Assembly (NCBI RefSeq): GCF_947504145.1
Contig: NZ_CANNGQ010000003.1
Span: forward strand, 62,001 to 126,000
Source: an uncultured Microbulbifer sp.
GTDB taxonomy: Bacteria > Pseudomonadota > Gammaproteobacteria > Pseudomonadales > Cellvibrionaceae
Length of the DNA stretch: 64,000 bases
Direction: 5' to 3'
The notes below the pieces were generated by a model that saw only the letters and a list, made by a program, of their open reading frames with translations, had not been told where the DNA came from and searched no databases. This document shows positions 47,013 to 48,070 of this stretch, in pieces. The first letter of the stretch is position 1; every line of letters starts with the position of its first letter. The translations under genes and the position numbers were made by a program.

Positions 47013-47843
47013 TTACTGTATTTCTAGCTTAGGCAAAGACTTTATTAAATCATCTACAGCCTTAATCTGAACAAGAAAAGGCTCCAATTTACTTAATGGC
47101 AATGCGCTTGGACCATCGCAACGAGCCTTGTCTGGATCAGGATGGGCCTCCAAGAATAGTCCAGCCAGGCCCACAGCCATGCCCGCTCGCGCCAGTTCAA
47201 GAACTTGAGCTCGACGACCTCCAGAAGCCGCCCCCATAGGATCACGCATTTGCAGGCTGTGGGTTACATCAAAAATAATTGGACAATTACCGGAAGCGTC
47301 CTTCATTTTTTTAAAGCCAAGCATATCTACAACAAGGTTATCATAACCAAAGCATGTACCTCGCTCACATAAGATGACCTGGCTATTTCCAGCCTCACGA
47401 CACTTCTCAACAATATTTCCAACTTGTGTCGGGCTTAAATACTGTGGTTTCTTTATATTAATTGGCTTTCCTGAGCGAGCAACCTCTACTACCAAATCTG
47501 TTTGGCGCGCTAGAAATGCCGGTACTTGTATAACATCAACCACTTCAGAAACGGCCGAAACCTGCTCAACTTCATGAATATCTGTTATAACTTTTACATC
47601 AAACTCCCGTTTCACTGCCTCAAAAATTTCCATTCCCTCTTGCAAACCAACTCCTCGATAAGACTTTATAGATGAGCGATTCGCTTTATCAAAAGAAGCC
47701 TTAAAAACGAACGGTATACCAAGCTTGCTTGTCACACGAACATACTCTGCACATGCAAACATAGTGGAGCTCAAATCCTCTAAAACATTAATTCCACCAA
47801 AAAGCGTAAATGGTAACTGGTTACACAAACTTTCCATTTTCAT
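47013..47843 (-). CDS. kdsA: Kdo-8-phosphate synthase, capsule copy
   Basis: This 276-residue aldol-type synthase joins arabinose-5-P and phosphoenolpyruvate. Family sequences include [73 protein letters not shown] and a final [20 protein letters not shown] start at the ATG at 47843 (GAG about 8 bases upstream) rather than the in-frame TTG four codons earlier; the ATG at 47837 is also possible. It is the first gene of the four-gene Kdo unit. A 16-copy 8-bp tandem repeat ends 37 bases before the start, so its expression may vary with repeat number. Confidence 0.95.
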
Positions 47844-47869
47844 ACCAAAACTCAATCAATGCATTAAAA

Positions 47870-48070
47870 CTACAACCAAACAATAAAGCAATAAAGCAAT
47901 AAAGCAACAAAGCAACAAAGCAACAAAGCAACAAAGCAACAAAGCAACAAAGCAACAAAGCAACAAAGCAACAAAGCAATAAAGCAATAAAGCAATAAAG
48001 CAATAAAGCAATTATTACGCGTACGCAAAATACTGAAAAACACACGCTTCAAATAAAAGCTAACCTCCAT
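47870..48070 (-). CDS. Possible small repeat-containing upstream frame before kdsA
   Basis: An ATG at 48070 opens a 66-codon frame that begins MEVSFYLKRVFFSILRTRNN and then reads through the whole octanucleotide repeat as a hydrophobic octapeptide period (ALLLCCFV / ALLLYCFI), stopping at a TAG at 47870. Because 8 is not a multiple of 3, all three frames across the repeat stay open and encode the same cyclic octapeptide. There is no good Shine-Dalgarno, so translation is unproven. If translated, copy number would decide where the frame ends relative to the kdsA start. Confidence 0.2.
   Translation of the reverse strand: MEVSFYLKRVFFSILRTRNNCFIALLLYCFIALLLCCFVALLLCCFVALLLCCFVALLLYCFIVWL
47881..48008. 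repeat. Octanucleotide tandem repeat (CAAYAAAG) x16 upstream of kdsA
   Basis: There are sixteen uninterrupted 8-base units: three CAATAAAG, then nine CAACAAAG, then four CAATAAAG. The only variation is C/T at one position. A degenerate unit (CAACCAAA) lies on the left and CAATTATT on the right. Perfect short repeats of this size are typical of slipped-strand, phase-variable loci. Confidence 0.97.

Follow-up and report, generated by a model that had tools for sequence, protein, structure and literature searches.

The question raised by this locus is whether an octanucleotide tract that stands immediately upstream of kdsA, in the capsule genes of an uncultured Microbulbifer sp., can tune that gene through its copy number, and by what route. 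In the window, by which we mean the whole 64-kb stretch of DNA analyzed, the preliminary description had counted 16 copies over 128 bases, 37 bases before the ATG, and our re-reading of the sequence reproduced these values exactly. On the plus strand, the tract consists of three CAATAAAG units (47881-47904), nine CAACAAAG units (47905-47976), and four CAATAAAG units (47977-48008), and apart from the two unit types there is no other change in it; bases 47844-47880 separate it from the kdsA ATG at 47843. Tandem Repeats Finder placed the repeat at 47873-48011 with a period of 8 and a score of 215, and its sole further row for the window was a two-copy 18-mer. The longest period-8 self-match run in the tract is 71 bases, compared with at most 10 bases in 500 single-base shuffles of 47401-48700 and at most 8 bases in the window without the tract. 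The pattern (CAAYAAAG)3 has no match in the 4.36-Mb assembly besides the tract itself, and no tract of 4-12 bp units with more than 3.0 copies was found in 400 kb of the same genome (20 stretches, approximately 9%). The tract is real and far from chance, and its 16 units and 128 bp form the long, near-perfect, short-unit array by which SSR contingency loci are recognized. Because the two unit types stand in 4-9-3 blocks, units were multiplied after a base change arose, and this block structure is the single sign that points to past slippage or recombination.

Table 1. Features of the tract, its flanks and the capsule locus (window coordinates)
Feature	Position	Strand	Remark
Octanucleotide tract	47881..48008	(-)	read towards kdsA, (CTTTATTG)4(CTTTGTTG)9(CTTTATTG)3
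Predicted leader ORF, TTG start, 60 aa, through the tract	47870..48052	(-)	in-frame ATG at 48070
GGAGG, candidate ribosome-binding site of the leader ORF	48064..48068	(-)	11 nt before TTG 48052
TGA downstream of the tract that closes the kdsA frame	47856..47858	(-)	would be the leader stop with 15 or 18 copies
TAA within kdsA, other frame	47821..47823	(-)	would be the leader stop with 14 or 17 copies
Promoter-like pair TTTTCA-17-AATAAT	48011..48039	(-)	abuts the tract on its upstream side; no more than expected by chance
kdsA, 3-deoxy-8-phosphooctulonate synthase, capsule-locus copy	47013..47843	(-)	NF009109, 512.2 bits, cut-off 457
kdsA alternative starts	TTG 47855, ATG 47837	(-)	
kdsC-type phosphatase	46465..47010	(-)	TIGR01670, over cut-off
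kdsB, CMP-Kdo synthetase	45696..46490	(-)	TIGR00466, over cut-off
kpsF/kdsD-type arabinose-5-phosphate isomerase	44764..45699	(-)	TIGR00393, over cut-off
Sulfotransferase family 2 type gene, co-directional, upstream of kdsA	48213..48824	(-)	PF03567
Capsule_synth gene, one stretch	31880..33130	(-)	PF05159
Capsule_synth gene, two stretches	34404..36473	(-)	PF05159

The genes that follow the tract had been called kdsA-kdsC-kdsB-kpsF, and these calls proved right, with models of the KdsA, KdsC, KdsB, and KpsF families matching over their cut-offs (Table 1). Elsewhere in the locus, model searches identified an ABC ATPase and proteins with ABC2_membrane and Poly_export/SLBB domains, together with an export protein whose best match, below that model's cut-off, is BexC/CtrB/KpsE-like. 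Of the two Capsule_synth genes, we take the one with a single stretch to be KpsS-type and the one with two stretches to be KpsC-type. Because these two genes accompany the export genes, we assign the locus by homology as an ABC-exported, Kdo-linked capsule locus; the PF05159 matches also bear out the capsule-anchor context that had been proposed, and a fair reading is that the Kdo set of the locus is dedicated to capsule. Two gene sets, at 51351-54922 and 59723-63223, lie on either side of the capsule export genes and are presumably rmlB-D-C-A-type sets of the dTDP-rhamnose pathway, the protein pairs between them being 84, 80, 92, and 90% identical. The region 39253-44692 contains a 315-aa gene, sulfotransferase-like by eye and with no NCBIfam match, between two large glycosyltransferase-like genes; G011, one of the relatives introduced below, keeps the order of this trio, and in the other, G020, the two large genes match one region only.

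The tract lies in the 369-base gap between the sulfotransferase-type gene and kdsA, the largest of the 26 gaps among the 27 co-directional genes listed. Leaving aside its copy in the window, the closest relative of that sulfotransferase among the proteins of the collection shares 73% identity. Past its stop, 22 codons in frame (48144-48212) resemble a lipoprotein signal with VSAC at its end, followed by a stop; the stretch is either chance or a remnant.

The proposal that capsule alone would vary had depended on a housekeeping Kdo set elsewhere in the genome, and the second kdsA for which a check had been suggested was indeed found, on contig 6, with 68% identity. Further matches were obtained for kdsB (43%), kdsC (32%), and kdsD (51%), the latter two lying 126 bp apart on contig 1, so that by homology the genome carries a second full Kdo set. 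The presence of this set supports one half of the proposal. The other half, an on/off switch, becomes doubtful because the housekeeping set could share CMP-Kdo, which, from what is known of the pathway, would be open to KpsC/KpsS. Since the full housekeeping set remains, we would therefore expect a graded change in capsule amount and not an all-or-none effect, and the same set could mask any effect of the tract.

We then considered how copy number could act on kdsA. A frame-shift switch within the gene was rejected: between the tract and the ATG, at a distance of 12 nt from the latter, a TGA terminates the kdsA reading frame, which puts kdsA itself beyond any shift caused by copy number. The candidate that emerged is a predicted leader ORF that runs through the tract (Table 1). 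On the kdsA strand, neither tract unit holds a stop in any frame, and the leader frame therefore stays open through the tract automatically. Leader stops were computed for 10-22 copies from either ATG 48070 or TTG 48052. At the present 16 copies, the leader ends 26 nt before the kdsA ATG; at 15 or 18 copies it ends 12 nt before it, and at 14 or 17 copies 23 nt inside kdsA. The stop is thus set by copy number modulo 3, as would be true of any ORF entering the tract. Seven starts open into the tract; five of them are in the frame of the predicted leader, and the other two, GTG 48045 and TTG 48011, enter in other frames and give stops at other copy numbers.

The ribosome site of the leader, formed by GGAGG and TTG 48052, has a duplex energy of -10.0 kcal/mol. 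When the 204-base flank was shuffled 1000 times with its dinucleotides preserved, some tract-entering start equalled this value in 12 cases, in a test designed post hoc with the site already seen. The TTG start and the long 11-nt spacing count against use of the leader. The kdsA site itself reaches only -2.4 kcal/mol and is thus no better than 2000 random positions, whose median is -2.9. Those of kdsB (0.3), kdsC (0.2), and kpsF (-1.5 kcal/mol) are weaker still, and the kdsA sites of two relatives are also weak (G020, 0.1; G011, -3.0). Because weak sites are this common in the block and in G020 and G011, the weakness of the kdsA site cannot be read as a particular indication of coupling. Among the listed ORFs of at least 5 codons, neither relative has a comparable leader with a similar site; the best leader sites are -3.1 in G020 and -6.5 in G011, the latter in a 7-codon ORF 115 nt before kdsA.

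Taken together, these features suggest, tentatively, that slippage may tune kdsA translation by shifting the stop of the predicted leader ORF. In the mechanism that we envisage, slippage would change the copy number in living cells and ribosomes would start the leader at TTG 48052 behind GGAGG. The copy number would then move the leader stop among positions 26 nt before, 12 nt before, and 23 nt inside kdsA. Transfer of ribosomes to the kdsA start, which is poorly marked, might be more efficient from the stop at 12 nt upstream than from the one at 26 nt, and a leader overlapping kdsA could give a third expression level, the outcome being a graded capsule amount with the housekeeping Kdo set remaining. 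Such frame-dependent coupling is, in our judgment, the likeliest and most specific of the functional mechanisms, although its own probability is limited. The considerations that lend it some weight are a tract far from chance, its 4-9-3 blocks, the frame shared by the starts, the ribosome site, the largest gap, the second Kdo set, the KpsC/KpsS-type genes, and the precedent of pil1 described below. Against it, the loci of G020 and G011 have the same block without the tract. In its full form, a three-position translational rheostat in which slippage places the end of a hydrophobic leader peptide at one of three points near the start codon of a kdsA that serves capsule alone, the model is unlikely to hold in every part. 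It predicts that kdsA expression would track copy number modulo 3.

The nearest working precedent is the pil1 locus of Streptococcus gallolyticus, where GCAGA repeats are reported to set the length of a leader peptide, after which the ribosome opens a terminator, so that the stop position of a repeat-bearing leader ORF sets downstream expression (PMC3894217). By analogy, the tract would work similarly. As reported, pil1/pil3 share with the present locus 5' tandem repeats with a unit length not divisible by three, a leader ORF across the repeats with its stop set by copy number modulo 3 (predicted here), and a downstream operon that serves a surface structure. In pil1/pil3, however, the target is a stem-loop terminator between leader and gene, whereas at kdsA the candidate target is the kdsA start. 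No terminator-like site is predicted between the tract and ATG 47843, and the nearest is a 5-pair stem upstream of the tract (48077-48064; 2 found, 1.3 expected). Because the defining terminator was not found, we do not file the tract as a pil1-type system. Moreover, pil1/pil3 are backed by variants and mutants, whereas the kdsA leader is a prediction.

The most serious alternative is a neutral microsatellite, that is, a repeat expanded by slippage within capsule DNA that is AT-rich and possibly exchanged, and without an effect on kdsA that is under selection, and the distribution of the tract speaks in its favor. The nearest named relative of this KdsA is that of Microbulbifer aggregans (89%). 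Two kdsA genes occur in 3 of 37 Microbulbifer genomes, our own one counted; the two others are G020 and G011. In both, kdsA-kdsC-kdsB-kpsF takes up the corresponding position in an orthologous capsule locus, with identities to G020 and G011, respectively, of 96 and 85% for kpsF and 89 and 84% for kdsA. Neither orthologous locus has a tract, and the genes directly upstream of kdsA differ. Among 48 Microbulbifer genomes, the three-unit pattern matches in its own genome alone and is missing from the other 47, and in a class sample of 369 genomes it occurs in two, the same genome and one with four copies. The latter genome (G200) has a four-copy CTTTATTG tract (L121, 1501-1532) approximately 0.1 kb upstream of an ORF that is unrelated to kdsA and looks secreted-protein-like by eye; this tract, too, speaks for the neutral reading. 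IMG/VR contains two contigs with a single match each to the 24-base pattern, one of them within a degenerate array of similar octamers. With the pattern in so few Microbulbifer genomes, class genomes, and IMG/VR contigs, a shared mobile repeat was rejected as its origin. Of 80 kdsA loci (930 kb), three contain tracts of 7-9 bp units that extend over three or more copies and 20 or more bases, none with period 8. Within the range of these searches, the tract is confined to its own lineage, and among the literature matches listed there was no paper on a tract in Microbulbifer or at kdsA.

The base composition also agrees with neutral expansion, in that G+C is 42-44% in 46001-52000, as opposed to 50-61% in the other 29 of 32 rows of the window, and the gap holding the tract lies in this AT-rich part. 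On the other hand, this is the only long tract in the 64-kb window and none was seen in the 400 kb sampled, which argues against a general accumulation of such repeats, and its position, 37 nt ahead of a gene block for surface polysaccharide, also counts against neutrality. We regard the neutral reading as quite possible, singly as likely as frame coupling or slightly likelier; the functional readings together outweigh it. A further caution comes from the gor gene of Moraxella catarrhalis, which resembles our case in having an 8-base unit very near the start of an enzyme gene. The GACTGTTT tract lies 25 bp before gor and is reported to range from 2 to 17 copies between strains, with no within-strain variation in the two strains tested (PMC7302503). 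By this analogy, differences between strains need not mean switching within a strain.

A second functional reading dispenses with the frame: a U-rich stretch of variable length in the leader or promoter would step transcript level or stability. In upstream position and unit length, the tract resembles those of Haemophilus influenzae hmw1A/hmw2A, where 7- or 8-base units likewise stand upstream of a surface gene and outside its frame, with similar copy numbers of 12-38 (PMC8262952, PMC2651432). The 7-bp units were placed about 100 bp upstream (PMC2651432), and hmw1A expression was reported to be lower with more repeats (PMC8262952). The hmw genes differ in encoding adhesins, with tracts 69-213 bp upstream and a graded 7-bp effect that was measured there. 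The AGAT tract of M. catarrhalis uspA2, also upstream, precedes a surface-protein gene and its effect was measured (PMC7302503), whereas kdsA encodes an enzyme of Kdo supply. In Helicobacter pylori, the length of a leader G-tract at tlpB-hp0102, the target of RepG, is described as grading an operon that feeds a surface polysaccharide (PMC8295292), a likeness to the kdsA block in both leader repeat and product. The H. pylori tract, however, pairs with a small RNA, and our search of the own genome for a 16-base piece of the tract, allowing at most one mismatch, found the tract only; small RNA pairing with the repeat was accordingly rejected. By analogy, the hmw, uspA2, and tlpB tracts indicate that upstream repeats can grade expression.

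A promoter-like pair ending at the upstream edge of the tract would suit such a frame-independent effect, although pairs of this kind occur in the region at chance level (2 found, 2.1 expected). Nor does the predicted structure at the kdsA start move much with copy number. At nine even copy numbers from 8 to 24, its unpaired fraction stays at 0.44-0.45 for a leader beginning at the tract and drops from 0.44 to 0.38 for a long leader. We consider this reading possible but doubtful, and less probable than frame coupling.

It is improbable, and compatible with the other readings, that the count itself is an assembly error and that the real tract is longer or shorter, or is a mixture of lengths in the culture. 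The assembly has 18 contigs and 128 bp is close to short-read length; against this, the contig is unbroken across the tract and the two unit types provide inner landmarks.

The least probable reading is the switch through promoter spacing or leader structure that was originally proposed. Tracts between promoter elements do work as spacing switches in other bacteria, but 128 bp is too long for a -35/-10 spacer, and a scan for -35/-10 type pairs found no sigma-70-like pair across or within the tract, the only nearby pair being the one at its edge; distal-element spacing of the kind known from nadA (PMC2791445) lies outside such a scan. The structural version fares no better. The predicted folding of the tract RNA is no more stable than that of shuffled sequences (z 0.67; longer leader, z -0.17), which together with the near-constant accessibility of the kdsA start rules against a leader-structure switch, and Rfam gave no match up to E = 1 in 44000-50000. 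The interpretation given in the preliminary description is partly supported: its guesses at gene content were confirmed by homology, and its mechanism is replaced by a sharper one, the shifting leader stop.

The tract is real and striking, and its place is suggestive. Microbulbifer is an environmental genus, known from sea and shores rather than from hosts. Phase variation has been described as typical of small-genome bacterial pathogens (PMC11475388), and a switching tract at this position, if true, would extend it to such a genus and would bring Kdo supply, rather than a transferase or an adhesin, within its reach. If the translational rheostat holds, each unit gained or lost would reset Kdo supply and capsule thickness while leaving lipopolysaccharide intact, and the locus would represent phase variation in which translation is coupled from leader to gene and no terminator takes part.
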